Of a DNA stretch of 64,000 nt, positions 44,632 through 52,089 are shown in pieces. Origin of the DNA: Pseudomonas sp. S09G 359 (GTDB lineage: Bacteria; Pseudomonadota; Gammaproteobacteria; Pseudomonadales; Pseudomonadaceae); assembly GCF_002843605.1 (NCBI RefSeq), contig NZ_CP025263.1, positions 3,749,501 through 3,813,500 of the forward strand, read 5' to 3'. The position numbers were made by a program, and so were the translations under genes. Position 1 is the first letter of the stretch. The number at the start of each line of letters is the position of its first letter. The notes beneath the pieces are model-generated. The model was not told the DNA's origin, made no database searches, and saw only the letters and a program-made list of their open reading frames with translations.

Positions 44632-44991
44632 TCAGTCCAGGCCGAGTTCCACCACGCCTGCGTTCAACCGCACCGGCCATACCCGCAACCGCTGATTTGG
44701 CGCCTCCAGGCACTGCCCGTCCTGCAATCGATAATGCTGCTTGTAGATCGGCGCGGCCACCACCAGGTCGCCCTTGATGCTGCCCACCAAGCCACGGCCG
44801 ATAACATTCGCGCCGGATTCCGGGTCATGGTTGTCGATGGCGAACAGCGTCTGCTCCTGCGCGCCCGGCAGGTAGAACAGCGCCACTTGCGCGCCGTCCA
44901 GCCACACCACCACGCCGGAGTTGCTCACCAGGTCTTGCTCGCTGCACACCCCTTTCCAGGTGGCGAGTTGTTGAATGTGGGGCTGGCTCAT
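44632..44991 (-). CDS. nirD: Nitrite reductase small subunit NirD
   Basis: The 119-aa protein has the Rieske-like fold of NirD (VCSEQDLVSNSGVVVWLDGAQVALFYLP, LFAIDNHDP, GLVGSIKGDLVVAAPIYKQHYRL) but lacks the cluster-binding Cys/His pairs, as normal for NirD. It supports the large subunit in NADH-dependent reduction of nitrite to ammonium in the cytosol. Its ATG overlaps the nirB stop as ATGA, so expression is coupled. Confidence 0.9.
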   Translation of the reverse strand: MSQPHIQQLATWKGVCSEQDLVSNSGVVVWLDGAQVALFYLPGAQEQTLFAIDNHDPESGANVIGRGLVGSIKGDLVVAAPIYKQHYRLQDGQCLEAPNQRLRVWPVRLNAGVVELGLD

Positions 44992-47534
44992 CAGGCGATC
45001 TCCTCGATGACGGGAATCAGGTTGAGTTCGGCGGCCATGATCGGCCGGCGCTGGCCGCGTTCCTGGACAAAATGGATGTCCGGGTCCGGGCGTTTGTCAT
45101 TGACGAAGGTGCGGAAGCGCTTGAGTTTTTCCGGGTCTTTGAGGGCGTTGGCCCACTCGCATTCGTAGCGGTCGACCACCAGTTGCATCTGCGCTTCGAG
45201 CTCGGCGCCGAGGCCGAGGCTGTCGTGCAGGATCACGTCCTTGAGGAAATCCAGGCCGCCTTCCAGGCTCTCGCGCCATACCGAAGTACGCTGCAGTTTG
45301 TCGGCGGTGCGGATGTAGAACATCAGGAAGCGGTCGATGTACTGGATCAGCGTGGCGTCGTCCAGGTCGGTGGCGAACAGCTCGGCATGGCGCGGGCGCA
45401 TGCCGCCATTGCCGGCGATGTAGAGGTTCCAGCCCTTCTCGGTGGCAATCACGCCGACGTCCTTGCTCTGGGCCTCGGCGCACTCGCGGGTGCAGCCAGA
45501 CACCGCAAACTTGAGCTTGTGCGGCGAGCGCAGGCCCTTGTAGCGATCCTCGATCAGCAGCGCCATTTTCACGCTGTCCTGCACGCCATAACGGCACCAG
45601 GTGCTGCCCACGCACGACTTCACCGTGCGCGTGGATTTGCCATAGGCATGCCCGGTTTCAAAACCCGCGGCGATCAGCTCGGCCCAGATATCCGGCAGTT
45701 CATGCAGTTGCGCACCAAACAGGTCGATGCGCTGGCCGCCGGTGATCTTGGTGTAGAGGTCGTATTTCTTCGCCACCTCGCCGATCACTATCAGCTTGTC
45801 GGCGGTGATCTCGCCGCCCGGAATGCGCGGTACCACCGAATAGGTGCCGTTCTTCTGCATGTTGGCCATGAAGGTGTCGTTGGTGTCCTGCAACGGCACC
45901 AGGGAAGCATCCATGATCGGCTGGTTCCAGCACGAGGCCAGGATCGAACCCACCGCCGGCTTGCACACATCACAACCGGTGTGGCCACGGCCATGTTTGG
46001 CCAGCAACTCTTCGAAGGTGATCACCCCTTCCACGCGCACCAGGGCGTACAGCTCCTGACGGGTGTAGGCAAAATGTTCGCACAGGCTCTTGTCGACGCT
46101 GACACCACGGGCAATCAATTCATGCTCGAACACTTGCTTGAGCAACCCCGCGCAACCGCCGCAGCCGGTACAGGCCTTGGTCTGGGACTTGAGCAAGCCA
46201 AGGTCGCTGCAACCGCCGTCGATGGCCGAGCAGATCGCGCCCTTGGTGACGTTGTGGCAGGAGCACACGGTGGCCGACTCCGGCAAGGCGCCGGGGCCGA
46301 GGGTGGGTGCGCCGGCGGACGACGGCAGGATCAGGCTGGCCGGTTCGGCGGGCAGCGTGATGCTGTTCTGCATGTATTGCAGCAAGGTGTCGTAGTAGCT
46401 GTTATCACCGACCAGCACCGCGCCGATCACATGCTTGCCGCTCGCGTCCACCACCAGGCGGCGGTAACTGGCGCTGGCCTCGTCGATAAACTGATAGCTG
46501 CGCGCGCCAGGGGTGTGGGCATGGGCGTCGCCGATGGAGCCGACGTCCACCCCCAGCAGTTTCAGCTTGGTCGACATATCGGCGCCAACAAACGGCTCGG
46601 CGCCCTGCTCGCACAACAGCGCGGCAACCCCACGGGCCATCTGGTAACCCGGCGCGACCAGGCCAAACAGGCTGCCATTCCACGAGGCGCACTCACCAAT
46701 CGCGTAGATGTGCGGGTCGCAACTCAAGCACTCATCGTTGATCACCACGCCGCCGCGCGGGCCAATCTCAAGGCCGGCCTGGCGGGCCAGGGCATCCTGG
46801 GCACGGATACCGGCGGAGAACACGATCAGGTCGGTTTCGAGGAATTCGTCATTGGCGAAGTTCATGCGATAGCGGTACTGCTCGCCCGCGCTGATCGACT
46901 GGGTGGCGCGCGACAAGTGCACACCGACGCCCAGCCGTTCGATCTGCGCCTTGAGCGCCAGCCCGCCAAAATCATCCAGCTGCACCGGCATCAGGCGCGG
47001 CGCGAATTCCACCACATGGGCTTCCAGGCCGAGGCTTTTCAGCGCGTTGGCAGCCTCCAGGCCCAGCAGCCCACCACCGACCACCACGCCACGCCGGGCG
47101 TTGGCGGCGGCTGTGCGGATCGCATCAAGATCTTGCAGCGTGCGGTACACCAGGCGTGAATCGCCTTCGGCGCCTTCGATCGGCGGCACAAACGGGTAAG
47201 AGCCGGTAGCCAGCACTAACGTGTCGTAGGCCACGCAACCGTTGGCCGTGATCACCTCGCGACGGGCGCGGTCGATTTCCAGCACCGGTACGCCCAAGTG
47301 CAAAGTCACGCCTGGCGTCTGGTACAGCGAGGCCTCGGACAATGCCAGCGACTCGGCATCGCGGCCGGTGAAATACTCGGACAGGTGCACACGGTCATAG
47401 GCGCGCATAGGCTCCTCGCTGAACACATGCAGGCGGTAGTGATCCAGCGCGCCGCGCTCGATCAATTGCTCCACGCAGTGATGGCCGACCATGCCATTGC
47501 CAACGACGATCAGGGTTTTCATCGGTTTGTTCAT
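44991..47534 (-). CDS. nirB: Nitrite reductase [NAD(P)H] large subunit NirB
   Basis: The 847-aa enzyme reduces nitrite to ammonium. The N-terminal 400 residues hold FAD/NADH motifs (VVGNGMVGHHCVEQL, LVLATGSYPFVPP), followed by the [2Fe-2S] BFD-like domain (CSCHNVTKGAICSAI, CTGCGGC), then siroheme/4Fe-4S residues (CVGSTWCRYG and GCTRECAEAQSKDVGV). ATG 47534 (MNKPMK) is preferred because AGGTG precedes it; a frame to 47552 exists. Its transcript carries a sigma-54 promoter, ANTAR-type hairpins and a terminator 40-75 bp before the start, so it should be nitrate-controlled by antitermination. Confidence 0.93.
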   Translation of the reverse strand: MNKPMKTLIVVGNGMVGHHCVEQLIERGALDHYRLHVFSEEPMRAYDRVHLSEYFTGRDAESLALSEASLYQTPGVTLHLGVPVLEIDRARREVITANGCVAYDTLVLATGSYPFVPPIEGAEGDSRLVYRTLQDLDAIRTAAANARRGVVVGGGLLGLEAANALKSLGLEAHVVEFAPRLMPVQLDDFGGLALKAQIERLGVGVHLSRATQSISAGEQYRYRMNFANDEFLETDLIVFSAGIRAQDALARQAGLEIGPRGGVVINDECLSCDPHIYAIGECASWNGSLFGLVAPGYQMARGVAALLCEQGAEPFVGADMSTKLKLLGVDVGSIGDAHAHTPGARSYQFIDEASASYRRLVVDASGKHVIGAVLVGDNSYYDTLLQYMQNSITLPAEPASLILPSSAGAPTLGPGALPESATVCSCHNVTKGAICSAIDGGCSDLGLLKSQTKACTGCGGCAGLLKQVFEHELIARGVSVDKSLCEHFAYTRQELYALVRVEGVITFEELLAKHGRGHTGCDVCKPAVGSILASCWNQPIMDASLVPLQDTNDTFMANMQKNGTYSVVPRIPGGEITADKLIVIGEVAKKYDLYTKITGGQRIDLFGAQLHELPDIWAELIAAGFETGHAYGKSTRTVKSCVGSTWCRYGVQDSVKMALLIEDRYKGLRSPHKLKFAVSGCTRECAEAQSKDVGVIATEKGWNLYIAGNGGMRPRHAELFATDLDDATLIQYIDRFLMFYIRTADKLQRTSVWRESLEGGLDFLKDVILHDSLGLGAELEAQMQLVVDRYECEWANALKDPEKLKRFRTFVNDKRPDPDIHFVQERGQRRPIMAAELNLIPVIEEIA

Positions 47535-47573
47535 ATCAGCACCTGACAACATTCATCACGGTTTTTGAAAAGC

Positions 47574-47609
47574 AAAAAAAAACGCCTGAAACCTTGCGGT
47601 TCCAGGCGT
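47574..47609 (-). terminator. Leader terminator of nirB (attenuator)
   Basis: On the minus strand the stem ACGCCTG ... CAGGCGT (with an inner AACC/GGTT stem) is followed by nine U. It lies 40 bp before the nirB start, and no gene ends here, so it must act inside the nirB leader. Confidence 0.85.
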
Positions 47610-47618
47610 CTTTGCCTG
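47603..47618 (-). promoter_or_regulatory. ANTAR-type hairpin P2 of the nirB leader
   Basis: CAGGC-AAAGAC-GCCTG: 5-bp stem and hexaloop with A at 1 and G at 4. Its 3' arm is the 5' arm of the terminator, so formation of P2 would prevent termination. Confidence 0.75.
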
Positions 47619-47677
47619 TTCTTATTGCGGGATCGGTTCGGCGACTGCGCCGGATCCATCGCTATTGCCCTGGTTGT

Positions 47678-47693
47678 CGATCGTCGTTGACCG
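47678..47693 (-). promoter_or_regulatory. ANTAR-type hairpin P1 of the nirB leader
   Basis: CGGTC-AACGAC-GATCG: 5-bp stem (one G-U) with hexaloop A1, G4, about 10 nt after the predicted transcription start. The linker to P2 is about 60 nt and folds into its own hairpin. Confidence 0.65.
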
Positions 47694-47713
47694 AGGTGGG
47701 TTGAAGCTGGACT

Positions 47714-47729
47714 TGCAGGCGGCGTGCCA
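47714..47729 (-). promoter_or_regulatory. Sigma-54 promoter of nirBD
   Basis: Minus-strand TGGCACGCCGCCTGCA has the -24 GG and -12 GC dinucleotides at the required 10-base separation and nearly the full TGGCAC-N5-TTGCA consensus. Transcription would start near 47703, giving a leader of about 170 nt. Confidence 0.75.
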
Positions 47730-47781
47730 ATCCGTAGGCAGCCCGTAATTGCGGGATCAAGCCGTATCCGGCCCGCTCAAA

Positions 47782-47800
47782 TGCGCCTCCAACTGGTGCG
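47782..47800. promoter_or_regulatory. Possible NtrC-type enhancer
   Basis: TGCGCC-N7-GGTGCG resembles the NtrC dyad, though the spacing is 7 rather than 5. It lies upstream of both sigma-54 promoters. A further TGCACC is at 47817. Weak evidence. Confidence 0.3.
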
Positions 47801-47829
47801 CCGCGCCTTATAAAAGTGCACCCCCACCT

Positions 47830-47921
47830 GTGGCGAGCGAGCTTGCTCGCGTTGGAGTGCGCAGCGCTCCGAGGATTTTGGCGCCGCTACGCAGCCCAAC
47901 GGGAGCAAGCTCCCTCGCCAC
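47830..47921. repeat. REP pair between nirB and nasA
   Basis: GTGGCGAGCGAGCTTGCTCG and an inverted GAGCAAGCTCCCTCGCCAC copy flank a GC-rich spacer, in the divergent gap. Confidence 0.8.
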
Positions 47922-47956
47922 ATAAAACCCGCTCATCACCAGGGCCCTGCCAAAGC

Positions 47957-47972
47957 TGGCGCGTGACTTGCT
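47957..47972 (+). promoter_or_regulatory. Sigma-54 promoter of nasA
   Basis: TGGCGCGTGACTTGCT has GG and GC separated by 10 bases and matches TGGCAC-N5-TTGCT except at one base. The start site would be near 47983, giving a leader of about 120 nt. Confidence 0.75.
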
Positions 47973-47989
47973 AGGGAGATACCTACCAA

Positions 47990-48030
47990 GCAGTCAACGC
48001 TGATTGCCCATTCACGACAAAGGCGCCGTG
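47990..48030 (+). promoter_or_regulatory. Dual-hexaloop ANTAR motif in the nasA leader
   Basis: P1 (47990-48007): GCAGTC-AACGCT-GATTGC, 6-bp stem, hexaloop with A1 and G4. P2 (48013-48030): CACGAC-AAAGGC-GCCGTG, stem with one A-C mismatch, again A1 and G4. A 5-nt linker joins them. P2 shares bases with the 5' arm of the following terminator. This is the layout recognised by ANTAR antiterminators (NasR, NasT). Confidence 0.8.
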
Positions 48031-48070
48031 CAGCCCCCGTTTCCAACGGAGGGTTGCAGGGCGCTTTTTT
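48022..48070 (+). terminator. Leader terminator of nasA (attenuator)
   Basis: Long stem from GCGCC (48023) to GGCGC (48060-48064), with paired inner CCC/GGG and CGTT/AACG parts, then six T (48065-48070). It stands 35 bp before the nasA start with no gene ending upstream. Confidence 0.85.
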
Positions 48071-48105
48071 GTTGGCGGCAAGAAAAGAAGGTTCGAGGGT
48101 TAACG

Positions 48106-51100
48106 ATGGCAAACCAAAGCGTACGCAGCGTGTGTCCCTATTGTGGCGTGGGCTGCGGCATCGTCATGCAGGTCGAAAACAACAAAGTGGTCAAGGTGAC
48201 CGGCGACAAGGCCCACCCCACCAACTTCGGTCGCCTGTGCACCAAGGGCACCACGTGCGGCCAGGCCATCGCCGAGTCTGGCCGCATGGAAAACGCCTAC
48301 CTGCGTGAGCAGCGCGACCAAGACCCGGTGCGCACTGCGATGGACACCGCCATCAGCGAAACCGCCGACCGCTTGCGCCACATCCTCGATCGCGATGGCC
48401 CCGAGGCGCTGGCGTTCTACGTGTCCGGGCAGATGTCGTTGGAAGCCCAATACCTGGCCAATAAGCTGGCCAAAGGTTTTGTGCGCACCCCTCACATCGA
48501 GTCCAACTCACGCCTGTGCATGGCCAGCGCCGGCAGCGGCTACAAGCTGTCCCTGGGCTCCGACGGCCCGCCCGGCTCCTATGCAGATTTCGACCGTGCC
48601 GACCTGTTCTTCGTGATCGGCGCCAATATGGCCGACTGTCATCCGATTCTGTTCCTGCGCATGATGGACCGGGTCAAGGCCGGGGCGAAGCTGATCGTCG
48701 TCGACCCCAGGCGCAGCGCCACGGCCGATAAGGCCAGCCTGTACCTGCCGATCAAGCCAGGTACCGACCTCGCCTTGCTCAATGGCCTGCTGCACCTGTT
48801 GGTGAAAAACGGCCACACCGACCCGGCCTTTATCGCCGCGTTCACCGACGGCTGGGACGCCATGCCCGGTTTCCTCGAGGACTACCCGCCGCAGACTGTC
48901 GCCGACCTCACGGGCCTGGCCGAAGCGGATATCCGCCAAGCCGCCGACTGGATCGGCCAGGCCGCCGAGTGGATGAGCTGCTGGACCATGGGCCTCAACC
49001 AGAGCACCCACGGCACCTGGAACACCAACGCCCTGTGCAACCTGCACCTGGCCACCGGCGCCATCTGCCGCCCCGGCAGCGGGCCGTTTTCGCTTACCGG
49101 CCAACCCAATGCCATGGGCGGACGCGAAATGGGTTACATGGGCCCGGGCCTGCCAGGGCAGCGCTCGGTGTTGGTGGAGGCCGACCGCGAATTTATCGCA
49201 GACCTCTGGCAAATCCCCCACGACAGCCTGCCGCGCCAGGCCGGCGGCGGTACCGTGGCGATGTTCGAGCAGATGGCCGCCGGGCAGATCAAGGCCTGCT
49301 GGATCATCTGCACCAACCCGGTCGCCAGCGCGCCCAACCGCAAGACCGTAATCGCCGGCCTGCAAGCCGCCGAACTGGTGATCACCCAGGACGCCTTCCT
49401 CGACACCGAGACCAACCGCTACGCCGACATCCTCTTGCCCGGCGCACTGTGGGCCGAGGCCGAAGGCGTGATGATCAACTCCGAACGCAACTTGACCCTG
49501 ATGCAAAAGGCCGTCGACGCACCGGGCGAAACCCTGCCCGACTGGCAGATCATTGCCCGGGTCGCCTGCGCAATGGGCTTTGCCGAGGCTTTCACCTATG
49601 CATCCGCCGCCGACGTCTTCGAAGAGATCAAACGCGCCTGGAACCCCAAGACCGGCTATGACATTCGTGGCGCCAGCTACGCGCGGCTGCGGGACCAACC
49701 GCTGCAATGGCCCTGTGCATCGAATGAGGCCGACGACCGCAACCCGATTCGCTACCTGGATACCGGCACACTCAAATTTGCCACCGATAACGGCAAGGGC
49801 CAGTTTTTTCCACGCCCGCATATGCCACCGGCGGAAATGCCCGATGACGCCTTCCCCTTCGTACTCAATACCGGCCGCCTGCAGCACCAGTGGCACACCC
49901 TGACCAAGACCGGCAAGGTCGCCACGCTGAACAAACTCAACCCTGGCCCGTTTGTGGAAATCCACCCGCAAGACGCTGCGCGCCTGGGCATCAACGCCAA
50001 GGATTCGGTGGAGATCCGCTCCGCGCGCGGCCGCGCCGTACTGCCTGCGGTGGTCACCGACCGCGTGCGTCCGGGCAACTGCTTTGCACCCTTCCACTGG
50101 AACGATGTGTTTGGCGACAACCTGGCGATCAACGCCGTGACCAACGACGCCGTCGACCCGATTTCGCTGCAGCCCGAATTCAAGTTCTGCGCGGTCGCCC
50201 TCGCCCGTGTCGCCCTGATCGACCACCAGTTTCTCGACGCGCCGGCAGCGGCTGAACACTCCCCGTTAACAGAGGCCCTCACTATGTCGCGTCTCGACGC
50301 CTTCGCCGACCTCACCGGCATCCGCGACCTGCCCAAACCCCAGCTGAGCGACAGTGAACGCACCTACCTCGCCGGTTTCCTCAGCGGCCTGCAAGCCAGT
50401 GCCGGAGGGGTACCGGTGATGCCGGCCAATGCGCCGTTGGCCAAGGATTCGCGGTTGTGGCTGGACGGCTTGCTCGGCGGTTTATTCAGCCGTGCCGACA
50501 CCGTTGTTGCCGCACCGCCCTCGCCGACAGTGACCCTGCTGTGGGCCTCGCAAACCGGCAACGCCGAAGCCCTGGCCGAGCGCTTTGCCAAGCGCCTGCG
50601 CGACGCCGGCATCAGCGTGGAACTGAGCGCCATGGCCGACTTCCCGCCGAGCAAACTGGCGACCACCCAGACCCTGGCCGTGATCAGTAGCACCTTTGGC
50701 GACGGCGACCCACCGGACAACGGTGAAAGCTTCTGGCACGGCCTCAGCAACGTCGACACGCGCCTGGAGTCGCTGCGCTTTGCGGTGCTGGCGCTGGGCG
50801 ATCCAAATTACGACCAGTTCTGCAAACACGGTAAACAACTCGACCAGCGCCTGCTGGAATTGGGCGCCACGCGTCTGCTCGACCGTGTGGACTGCGACAC
50901 CGAATTCGAAGAACGCGCCGATGCCTGGCTGGCGCAGTTCCAGCAAGCCCTCAACCCGGCAAAACCGCCAAGCCTGCCCACGCCGGCGGGCAAAACCAAG
51001 CTGCACGGGGCACGGCTGCTGCTCAACCGGCACCTCAACCCCCACAGCCGTCACAAGGAAACCCGCCAGTTCGCCCTCGACCTGGCCGACTCCGGGTTGG

Positions 51101-52089
51101 CCTATGAAGCCGGCGATGCCCTTGGCGTGCGGCCGCGCAACTGCCCTGAACTGGTGAGCGAATTGCTCGACCTGACCCGCTTGAACGCCAGCACCTCGGT
51201 GAACATCGACACCTTCGGTGATGTGCCACTGCAACAGGCGCTCACCCAACATTTCGAAATCGCCCGCCCCGGCGCTGAAACCCTCGCGTTTATTGCCGAG
51301 CGCAGCGCCAACCCTGGCCTGGAGCACTTATTGCGGCCCGAGCACAAGGCCGAACTAAAAGACTGGCTCTGGGGCCGGCAGCTGGTGGACGTGCTGCAGG
51401 AATACCCCGTCGAGTGTTCGGCCGACGAGCTGCTGGGCACCCTCAAGCGCCTGCAACCGCGCCTGTACTCGATTGCCTCCAGCGCCAAGGCGCACCCACA
51501 CGAAGTGCACCTCACCGTGGCCGCCGTGCGTTACGGCAAGCGCAAAGGCGTGTCGTCGACCTTCCTGGCCGACCGTGCGGGCGACGGCGAAGTGCCGGTG
51601 TTCGTACAGCCGAACAAGCACTTTCGTACGCCCACTGACGGCGATGTACCGATGATCATGATCGGCCCTGGCACCGGCGTGGCGCCGTTCCGCGCGTTTT
51701 TGCAGGAGCGCCGGGCGCAGGGGCATCAGGGCCGTAACTGGCTGTTCTTTGGCGAGCAGCATGCCGCCAGCGACTTCTACTATCAGGATGAGCTGCAAGG
51801 CTTGCAGCGCGACGGCTTGCTCACCCACCTGAGCCTGGCGTTTTCCCGCGACCAGGCGCAGAAAATCTACGTGCAGGACCGCATCCGCGAAACAGGCGAC
51901 GAGCTGTGGCGCTGGCTACAGGACGGCGCCAAGCTGTACATCTGCGGGGACGCCAGCCAGATGGCCAAGGACGTCGACCAGGCATTGCGCCAGGTCGCGC
52001 AAACCCACGGCGGGCTGAGTGCCGAGAGCGCCGTGGAGTACTGGCGGCAGTTGAGCGAGCAGAAGCGTTATCTGCGTGATGTGTATTGA
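48106..52089 (+). CDS. nasA: Assimilatory nitrate reductase fused to CysJ-type flavoprotein
   Basis: The 1327-aa protein joins two enzymes. Residues 1 to about 705 are a bis-MGD nitrate reductase with an N-terminal [4Fe-4S] site (C10, C13, C17, C45) and molybdopterin motifs. Residues about 808-950 are a flavodoxin domain (LLWASQTGNAEALAERF), and about 965-1327 the FAD/NADPH part (RLYSIASSA, GPGTGVAPFRAFLQERR, YICGDASQMAKDV), as in sulfite reductase alpha. NADPH electrons should pass through FAD and FMN straight to molybdenum, replacing a separate NasB/C reductase. It is annotated in pseudomonads as bifunctional nitrate/sulfite reductase. ATG 48106 was chosen by homology and GAGGG upstream. 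Confidence 0.93.
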   Translation: MANQSVRSVCPYCGVGCGIVMQVENNKVVKVTGDKAHPTNFGRLCTKGTTCGQAIAESGRMENAYLREQRDQDPVRTAMDTAISETADRLRHILDRDGPEALAFYVSGQMSLEAQYLANKLAKGFVRTPHIESNSRLCMASAGSGYKLSLGSDGPPGSYADFDRADLFFVIGANMADCHPILFLRMMDRVKAGAKLIVVDPRRSATADKASLYLPIKPGTDLALLNGLLHLLVKNGHTDPAFIAAFTDGWDAMPGFLEDYPPQTVADLTGLAEADIRQAADWIGQAAEWMSCWTMGLNQSTHGTWNTNALCNLHLATGAICRPGSGPFSLTGQPNAMGGREMGYMGPGLPGQRSVLVEADREFIADLWQIPHDSLPRQAGGGTVAMFEQMAAGQIKACWIICTNPVASAPNRKTVIAGLQAAELVITQDAFLDTETNRYADILLPGALWAEAEGVMINSERNLTLMQKAVDAPGETLPDWQIIARVACAMGFAEAFTYASAADVFEEIKRAWNPKTGYDIRGASYARLRDQPLQWPCASNEADDRNPIRYLDTGTLKFATDNGKGQFFPRPHMPPAEMPDDAFPFVLNTGRLQHQWHTLTKTGKVATLNKLNPGPFVEIHPQDAARLGINAKDSVEIRSARGRAVLPAVVTDRVRPGNCFAPFHWNDVFGDNLAINAVTNDAVDPISLQPEFKFCAVALARVALIDHQFLDAPAAAEHSPLTEALTMSRLDAFADLTGIRDLPKPQLSDSERTYLAGFLSGLQASAGGVPVMPANAPLAKDSRLWLDGLLGGLFSRADTVVAAPPSPTVTLLWASQTGNAEALAERFAKRLRDAGISVELSAMADFPPSKLATTQTLAVISSTFGDGDPPDNGESFWHGLSNVDTRLESLRFAVLALGDPNYDQFCKHGKQLDQRLLELGATRLLDRVDCDTEFEERADAWLAQFQQALNPAKPPSLPTPAGKTKLHGARLLLNRHLNPHSRHKETRQFALDLADSGLAYEAGDALGVRPRNCPELVSELLDLTRLNASTSVNIDTFGDVPLQQALTQHFEIARPGAETLAFIAERSANPGLEHLLRPEHKAELKDWLWGRQLVDVLQEYPVECSADELLGTLKRLQPRLYSIASSAKAHPHEVHLTVAAVRYGKRKGVSSTFLADRAGDGEVPVFVQPNKHFRTPTDGDVPMIMIGPGTGVAPFRAFLQERRAQGHQGRNWLFFGEQHAASDFYYQDELQGLQRDGLLTHLSLAFSRDQAQKIYVQDRIRETGDELWRWLQDGAKLYICGDASQMAKDVDQALRQVAQTHGGLSAESAVEYWRQLSEQKRYLRDVY

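Follow-up and report, generated by a model that had tools for sequence, protein, structure and literature searches.

Leaders of ANTAR-antiterminator build behind sigma-54 promoters at the divergent nirB and nasB operons of Pseudomonas sp. S09G 359

Introduction

In Klebsiella, NasR carries out nitrate-dependent antitermination at a two-hairpin element of the nitrate assimilation operon, and systematic evolution of ligands by exponential enrichment (SELEX) found that the protein prefers a C-G pair closing the loop (PMC7496416). The dual-hexaloop rule for such leaders, with examples that include nitrate/nitrite transporter and nitrite reductase genes, was described by Ramesh et al. in 2012 (PMC3369931). 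In this work, we analysed a 64,000-nt stretch of the Pseudomonas sp. S09G 359 genome (contig NZ_CP025263.1, 3,749,501 to 3,813,500; hereafter the window), in which the divergent operons of nirB and nasB, responsible for the conversion of nitrate to ammonium, are separated by a gap that holds one leader of this kind for each operon.

According to the cited passages, NasT of Paracoccus binds the nasA leader and NasS releases NasT with nitrate or nitrite (PMC3795266), and mutating one hairpin of the nasA leader severely lowered expression (PMC5424462). In P. putida, a nasT deletion gave no growth on nitrate (PMC7261876), and sigma-54 promoters have been predicted before nasT-type genes (PMC12316311). 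In PAO1 and P. protegens, the nitrate/nitrite operon has been described as having a leader RNA, NalA, that is transcribed from a sigma-54 promoter (PMC3973561; review PMC12830290). For the ANTAR protein EutV, 20 extra nt between the hairpins abolished antitermination; EutV also binds single hexaloops, and its dimer was proposed to bind the first hexaloop and cycle on to the second (PMC8934654).

The mechanism considered here is already known in kind; both the ANTAR dual-hexaloop motif and a NasT-dependent sigma-54 nirB leader (NalA) have been published. The leaders of the window share with the antiterminators of EutV, NasR and AmiR two hexaloops with A at position 1 and G at position 4 (A1 and G4 below), a closing C-G pair, the mutual exclusion of the second hairpin and the terminator, and an ANTAR protein in the genome. 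They differ in that a sigma-54 promoter stands directly above each leader, that the second stem of the nasB leader is mismatched, and that the nirB leader has a 58-nt linker and a third hairpin. The Klebsiella nasF leader is likewise a two-hairpin element of a nitrate assimilation operon, but NasR bears its own nitrate-sensing domain, whereas here a receiver-ANTAR protein is found with a separate NasS-like protein. NalA, which heads the nirBD operon of Pseudomonas, shares the position before nirB, the -24/-12 promoter and the terminator, and its dependence on NasT is published, whereas here we infer it; this likeness is drawn from descriptions rather than sequence and leaves NalA free to be of the window type or of the P11 type treated below.

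We estimate at roughly 90% the probability that nitrate-relieved attenuation by NasS and NasT, behind sigma-54 promoters, governs both operons as two locks in series. Since the anatomy is conserved, the first hairpin covaries and the genome has a single NasT-like ANTAR protein, this reading is well supported.

Results and discussion

Two leaders of the same build

The 571-bp gap (47535-48105) separates nirB on the minus strand from nasB, a fused nitrate reductase gene, on the plus strand. The start of nirB is the ATG at 47534, and a second in-frame ATG lies at 47552. The two genes and the elements of their leaders, in which P1 and P2 are the first and second hexaloop hairpins, are as follows.

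44991..47534, minus strand: nirB, assimilatory NAD(P)H nitrite reductase large subunit (open reading frame, ORF; TIGR02374 1029 bits and PRK14989 1225 bits, both above cut-off)
47729-47714, minus strand: sigma-54 (-24/-12) promoter of nirB, TGGCACGccgcCTGCA / TGGCACGCCGCCTGCA, GG-N10-GC, score 11/12
47694-47677, minus strand: nirB hairpin P1, TCGGTC AACGAC GATCGA, hexaloop AACGAC
47652-47639, minus strand: third (middle) hairpin, CGGC GCAGTC GCCG, inside the P1-P2 linker
47618-47603, minus strand: nirB hairpin P2, CAGGC AAAGAC GCCTG, hexaloop AAAGAC
47613-47574, minus strand: intrinsic terminator of the nirB leader, 16 pairs, -24.7 kcal/mol
48106..52089, plus strand: nasB, assimilatory nitrate reductase fused to a sulfite-reductase-type flavoprotein (ORF, 1327 aa from ATG 48106)
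47957-47972, plus strand: sigma-54 (-24/-12) promoter of nasB, TGGCGCGtgacTTGCT / TGGCGCGTGACTTGCT, GG-N10-GC, score 11/12
47990-48007, plus strand: nasB hairpin P1, GCAGTC AACGCT GATTGC, hexaloop AACGCT
48013-48030, plus strand: nasB hairpin P2, CACGAC AAAGGC GCCGTG, hexaloop AAAGGC, with one A.C mismatch beside the closing C-G pair
48022-48070, plus strand: intrinsic terminator of the nasB leader, -35.3 kcal/mol

The leader RNAs are estimated to start near 47703 (nirB, the left leader) and 47983 (nasB, the right leader), and all four P1 and P2 hexaloops have A1, G4 and the closing C-G pair. The nirB terminator takes in the GCCTG arm and part of the P2 loop, and the nasB terminator the 3' arm and part of the P2 loop. 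On either strand the 5' arm of the terminator incorporates the 3' arm of P2, so that only one of the two structures can form at a time. The right terminator was missed by a simple terminator scan and is plain in the folds; the folding program closes the right P1 hexaloop to a tetraloop.

A sequence-only reading of this gap had proposed the same switch on both strands, and the -24/-12 site, two A1/G4 hexaloop hairpins and terminator are indeed present on each. It was also correct that GG and GC stand 10 bases apart in both promoters, that the second hairpin shares bases with the terminator (the 3' arm of P2 lies within the terminator stem on both strands), and that no gene ends in the gap, as far as ORFs of at least 150 aa, the size range examined, are concerned. 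Two of its terms have to be narrowed. The term dual hexaloop fits the right leader but not the left one, where the 58-nt linker holds the third hairpin. Both strands do have leaders, as the term mirrored implied, but these are simply two operons that each own one: in the 19 genomes of the genus with nasB of the window type, nirB and nasB each have their own leader in all 19, and nirB is divergent in nine, on the same strand in nine and on a separate contig in one.

We compared these elements with chance expectation. Hexaloops with A1, G4 and at least five contiguous pairs number one in the right leader and two in the left, the right P2 being excluded because its A.C mismatch adjoins the closing pair. 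In 5000 dinucleotide shuffles per leader, at least one such hexaloop appeared in 2.1% (right) and 2.7% (left), and two appeared in none. The count over the whole gap is weaker, being equalled by 19% of shuffles on the plus strand and 2.2% on the minus strand. Sites of the -24/-12 type scoring at least 11/12 number three in the 64-kb window and three in one shuffled window; promoter scores alone are therefore within chance at this length, and the evidence for the promoters is their recurrence in relatives. Since both the whole-gap count and the promoter scores are weak against chance, the case rests on conservation.

Conservation and covariation in the genus

The genus sample contained 59 genomes, the source genome included. 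A search with the first 254 residues of nirB (E 1e-60) found the gene in 39 genomes, and nasB was found in 56; 19 of these 56 nasB matches are of the window type (at least 71% identity), the others showing 42-47%, and only the leaders of those 19 were analysed. The nirB and nasB leaders were gathered by protein, whereas leaders of narK-type transporter genes and of nasS-nasT were gathered by matches to Rfam family RF03032 (narK RNA). Among the 98 RF03032 rows, 42 were analysed as narK and 26 as nasS leaders, labels that rest on score and position rather than on each downstream ORF; the rest were nasB leaders or outside the analysis.

The full anatomy recurs in 38 of the 39 nirB leaders and in all 19 nasB leaders, a few loops having lost A1. 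Where the search pattern left the loop free, A1 and G4 were both present in 39/39 nirB P2 loops, A1 in 18/19 and G4 in 19/19 nasB P1 loops, and A1 in 16/19 and G4 in 19/19 nasB P2 loops. P1 of nirB was found in 38/39 leaders with a pattern that demanded A1 and G4. Since the patterns for the narK and nasS loops also demanded A1, and G4 as well except in nasS P1, the A1/G4 counts in these sets and in nirB P1 are partly by construction. Patterns demanding the closing C-G pair matched P1 in 125 of 126 leaders and P2 in all 126. Beside the closing pair of P2, the A.C mismatch stands in 19/19 nasB leaders, all of which match a P2 pattern that demanded it, and A-U occupies that place in the 42 narK leaders.

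A GG-N10-GC site scoring at least 9/12 precedes 126/126 leaders (nirB, nasB and the 68 labelled narK or nasS), the promoter being taken as the best such site in each extracted stretch, a choice that carries no computed chance level. The scores were 9-11/12 in the 39 nirB leaders and 10-11/12 in the 19 nasB leaders; the RF03032 model includes the promoter and P1, so the promoter count in the 68 narK and nasS leaders is partly by construction.

Covariation in P1 was examined in 69 distinct windows out of 125. In total 155 cells carried a change in each partner, the shuffles giving 56, and the covariation scores were 0.754 (leaders) and 0.232 (shuffles); none of 500 shuffles was as high for either quantity. 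The innermost P1 pairs were fixed by the search patterns (four in nirB, three in nasB, two each in narK and nasS), and therefore the outer pairs carry this evidence. Stem counts were made from contiguous pairs, a counter that allowed one mismatch or bulge having been dropped as too lenient. Among 146 leaders, 20 of the P11 family included, 145 have the P2 3' arm within the terminator stem, and the remaining one has three of its five bases there; the T-run yielding most overlap was chosen for each.

Model R1, made from short-linker leaders (47 of 61 distinct cores), did not detect the nirB leader (9.5 bits at 47696-47640). Model R2 was therefore built from the nirB leaders of relatives, excluding the sequence of this genome, and matched the left leader with 109.9 bits (E 2.8e-21), the next best place in the genome reaching 19.8 bits. 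An additional R2 match of 19.5 bits, at 47495-47611 on the plus strand, lies in part opposite the left terminator and was set aside.

These results bear on the idea that the terminators are constitutive insulators, the operons being driven by promoters below them and the hexaloops being incidental. It is true that strong terminators precede both genes. However, a scan that covered only sigma-70-type promoters found none in 47300-48300, the GG-N10-GC site recurs in every one of the 126 leaders, and P1 covaries although it lies outside the terminator. We consider insulation extremely improbable.

The NasT-like protein and other leaders

The genome encodes a single ANTAR-domain protein at E 1e-3, a NasT-like protein with a receiver and an ANTAR domain. 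At 5.10 Mb, about 1.3 Mb from the window (3.75-3.81 Mb), its ORF and the end of a NasS-like ORF overlap. A NarK-type transporter gene adjoins this pair (TIGR00886 307.9 bits, just below the cut-off of 311.7). Leaders of the same sigma-54/hexaloop/terminator build stand before nasS-nasT (L002:4005-4080) and before the narK-type gene (L002:5968-6090), which gives four in the genome (nirB, nasB, narK and nasS), the next model matches scoring at most 23 bits. The leader of nasS-nasT suggests that NasT probably governs its own operon, and with it its own synthesis.

The ANTAR protein occurs in 57 of the 59 genus genomes and an RF03032 match in 53 at E 1e-3 (51 above cut-off). In the class sample of 274 genomes, model R1 matched 11 (E 1e-4) and the PF03861 ANTAR domain was found in 87 (E 1e-3). 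All 11 R1-positive genomes have the domain, with the ANTAR gene upstream on the same strand, about 46-2665 bp from an element. By a hand calculation, in which kinship is uncorrected and this genome is counted, the hypergeometric chance of this co-occurrence is about 2e-6.

It might be argued that the leaders attenuate but answer to a leader peptide, a riboswitch ligand or another RNA-binding protein. Rfam keeps narK RNA and P11 as separate families, and four of the 57 genus genomes with an ANTAR protein (G001, G018, G041 and G051) have no RF03032 match, as one might expect if NasT were not the partner. Against this, the loop rules and the closing pair fit the ANTAR motif, this genome has just one ANTAR protein, and the element in the class sample is confined to genomes with an ANTAR gene (11/11, against 87 of 274 overall) and lies near it. 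The two genus genomes with no ANTAR protein (G003 and G037) also have no RF03032 match, although nirB and nasB are likewise missing from them at the cut-off used. Control by something other than NasT thus seems to us highly improbable.

Elsewhere in the class, in further genera and families (L189-L199), the element lies downstream of the ANTAR gene, and in several it precedes ORFs that by eye are NarK-like, nitrate-binding-protein-like or nirB-like. One genus genome (G008) has an extra leader of the same build (L143, G008:C5:506326-506407) before an ORF resembling, by eye, nitrate transport binding proteins; this leader (G008b) was counted among the 26 nasS leaders.

Proposed mechanism

Under NasS/NasT attenuation, sigma-54 polymerase, presumably with NtrC, would initiate a leader on each strand under nitrogen shortage. 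Without nitrate, NasS would hold NasT, P1 and then the strong terminator would fold, and transcription would end before the start codon. As in the published relatives, binding of nitrate or nitrite to NasS would free NasT, whose ANTAR domain would then grip the A1/G4 hexaloops of P1 and P2, so that P2 persists and read-through follows. One NasT may serve at least four leaders, those of nirB, nasB, narK and nasS-nasT. If so, a single nitrate-released protein would gate uptake through narK, reduction through nasB and nirB, and the synthesis of nasS-nasT at the level of RNA elongation.

The sequence-only reading had called this the complete logic of ANTAR antitermination, and it is supported by the anatomy and its conservation, by P1 covariation, by the arm common to P2 and the terminator and by the presence of NasS- and NasT-like genes. 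It had placed the NasT and NasS genes outside the window, which is where we found them, and had proposed conservation of A1, G4 and the stems in relatives as a check; the loops and stems are kept in the nirB and nasB leaders and P1 covaries, so that the interpretation stands.

Several points weigh against it. The right P2 stem is mismatched (A.C), G occupies loop position 1 in 3/19 nasB P2 and 1/19 nasB P1 loops, and the number of P1 pairs with both-side change, six of seven, was equalled by 473 of 500 shuffles. The four genomes above have the ANTAR protein and no RF03032 match. The 58-nt left linker exceeds the tolerance of EutV, a limit measured for EutV and not for NasT. The minimum free energy is -49.1 in the right leader, against -27.6 with P2 enforced, and -50.7 against -39.4 in the left. 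The isolated terminator is therefore far more stable than P2, and P2 would have to be held co-transcriptionally. The last point concerns NtrC. With TGCACYN5RGTGCA, which we take to be its consensus, a scan allowing up to three mismatches was uninformative, the window yielding 91 matches and shuffles an expectation of 119; it showed no convincing site, the three-mismatch matches in the gap lying at 47804-47820 (upstream of the promoters) and 48042-48058 (in the right leader). By eye, TGCAC half-sites are seen upstream of several nirB promoters.

Hairpin spacing in the nirB leader

The hexaloops stand 17 nt apart in the right leader and 69 nt apart in the left. In the genus the spacing is 32-83 nt (median 69) for nirB, 16-39 for nasB, 17-23 for narK and 15-20 for nasS. 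Part of this distance may be bridged by folding: the folded left linker leaves 22 unpaired nt, near the 21-27 nt linkers of short-linker leaders, and the predicted number in other nirB leaders ranges from 1 to 22. The linker helix is weakly supported. Of the 24 linkers that place the loops at least 60 nt apart, 19 were aligned (a further alignment, A4, took 19 of 24 listed leaders); in the linker alignment 80.3% of cells are paired against 78.2% in shuffles (37/500 as high), the RNAalifold energy is -4.3, and the covariation score was equalled by 5/500 shuffles.

A middle hairpin of the form GGC-N6-GYY occurs in 22 of 26 nirB leaders examined (the 24 with spacing of at least 60 nt, plus G018 and G056), and of these loops 21 have G4 and 14 have A1. 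Of the long linkers, 13 of 24 contain an A1/G4 hexaloop; shuffling, with kinship uncorrected, predicts 2.5. In the window, G1 and C6 of the middle loop GCAGTC are able to pair, leaving a CAGT tetraloop, and therefore the middle hexaloop has probably been lost in this genome. By eye, the hairpin at the middle position of G018 (L058) and G056 (L059) bears an AACGNN loop, the upstream one being absent or without A1. The nirB leader of G001 keeps P2, with no P1 found by the patterns, and may by eye (L254) represent hairpin turnover of the same kind as in G018 and G056.

A further possibility is that, of the two leaders, NasT properly targets that of nasB alone, the nirB P1 lying too far off at 58 nt and P2 working alone or with the middle hairpin. 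This would agree with the failure of EutV over 20 extra nt and its binding of single hexaloops (PMC8934654), with the wider loop spacing of nirB leaders (32-83 nt against 15-39 in the other leaders), and with the G001, G018 and G056 leaders just described. On the other hand, P1 is present in 38/39 nirB leaders, albeit by a pattern that demanded A1/G4, and folding of the linker can draw the two hairpins together, through a helix with the limits given above. We judge a nasB-only switch unlikely, and retain NasS/NasT attenuation for both operons.

More speculatively, the nirB leaders may be three-station relays, with a recruiting P1, a middle hexaloop on the tip of the folded linker and an antiterminating P2, along which the ANTAR protein would be handed over an RNA too long for the two-station model of EutV. 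Such stations would turn over, the middle loop having been promoted to P1 in G018 and G056 and closed to a tetraloop in the lineage of the window, and P11 would be the terminated form of such a leader. We regard this scheme as doubtful and put it forward only tentatively. The EutV structure left hairpin-to-hairpin transfer as a model with a strict distance limit, and the nirB loop distances of 32-83 nt offer a ready set for testing ANTAR transfer between hairpins.

Relation to the Rfam families narK RNA and P11

In the gap, one Rfam match lies above its cut-off.

47958..48029, plus strand: match to RF03032 (narK RNA), 54.7 bits against a gathering cut-off of 43.2

By this score the right leader is a member of narK RNA. 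The match starts at the -24 element and stops at the next-to-last base of P2, the first 15 positions of the model fall on the promoter, and its sole modelled helix is P1. The model covers the promoter, P1 and most of P2, whereas the unit in the window continues through P2 and the terminator. The left leader scored below the cut-offs of both families, with 15.5 bits for RF03032 (cut-off 43.2) and 12.7 bits for RF00625, P11 (cut-off 70).

P11 has been termed a regulator of a nitrogen assimilation operon in the cited passage (PMC12080996). The family gave no match in this genome at E 1e-3 and lies above cut-off in 38 of the 59 genus genomes; sub-cut-off P11 matches fall on window-type nirB leaders at six of 12 loci tested and nine times in the genus search. 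We tallied 20 of the 38 rows by hand. The GG-N10-GC site is present in 19, a first hairpin with an AACGNN or AAAGAC loop and at least four pairs in 16, a middle CCCG-N6-CGGG hairpin in all 20 (A1 in 18, G4 in 18), and a GGAC AAAGGC GTCC hairpin within the terminator in all 20. A nirB-type ORF is the longest downstream frame in 19, mostly starting with MKKLKLVMIGNGMAGVRTLEEL or near it (L235-L254). P11 leaders follow the same plan as those of the window, but usually with three closely placed hexaloops.

From these features and the span of the RF03032 match, both families appear to be made up of leaders built in this way, and they would gain a proposed mechanism if NasS/NasT attenuation is right. 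In the titles, abstract openings and passages covered, a range that leaves key papers outside, no literature was found that links narK RNA or P11 to NasT or describes the nasB leader. Reports also name P11 as the bacterial RNA behind inherited avoidance in C. elegans.

Other features of the gap

Pfam domains score above cut-off in nasB; among NCBIfam models the best (CysJ, NasC and others) stay under theirs. Between the two promoters lies an inverted repeat.

47829..47922, strand not assigned: REP-type inverted pair, arms of 38 nt, 87% complementary

Matches to microRNA families and to STnc310 fell below their cut-offs and were taken as chance or as the inverted pair. This pair, presumably of the REP/REPIN kind, is unrelated to either switch.

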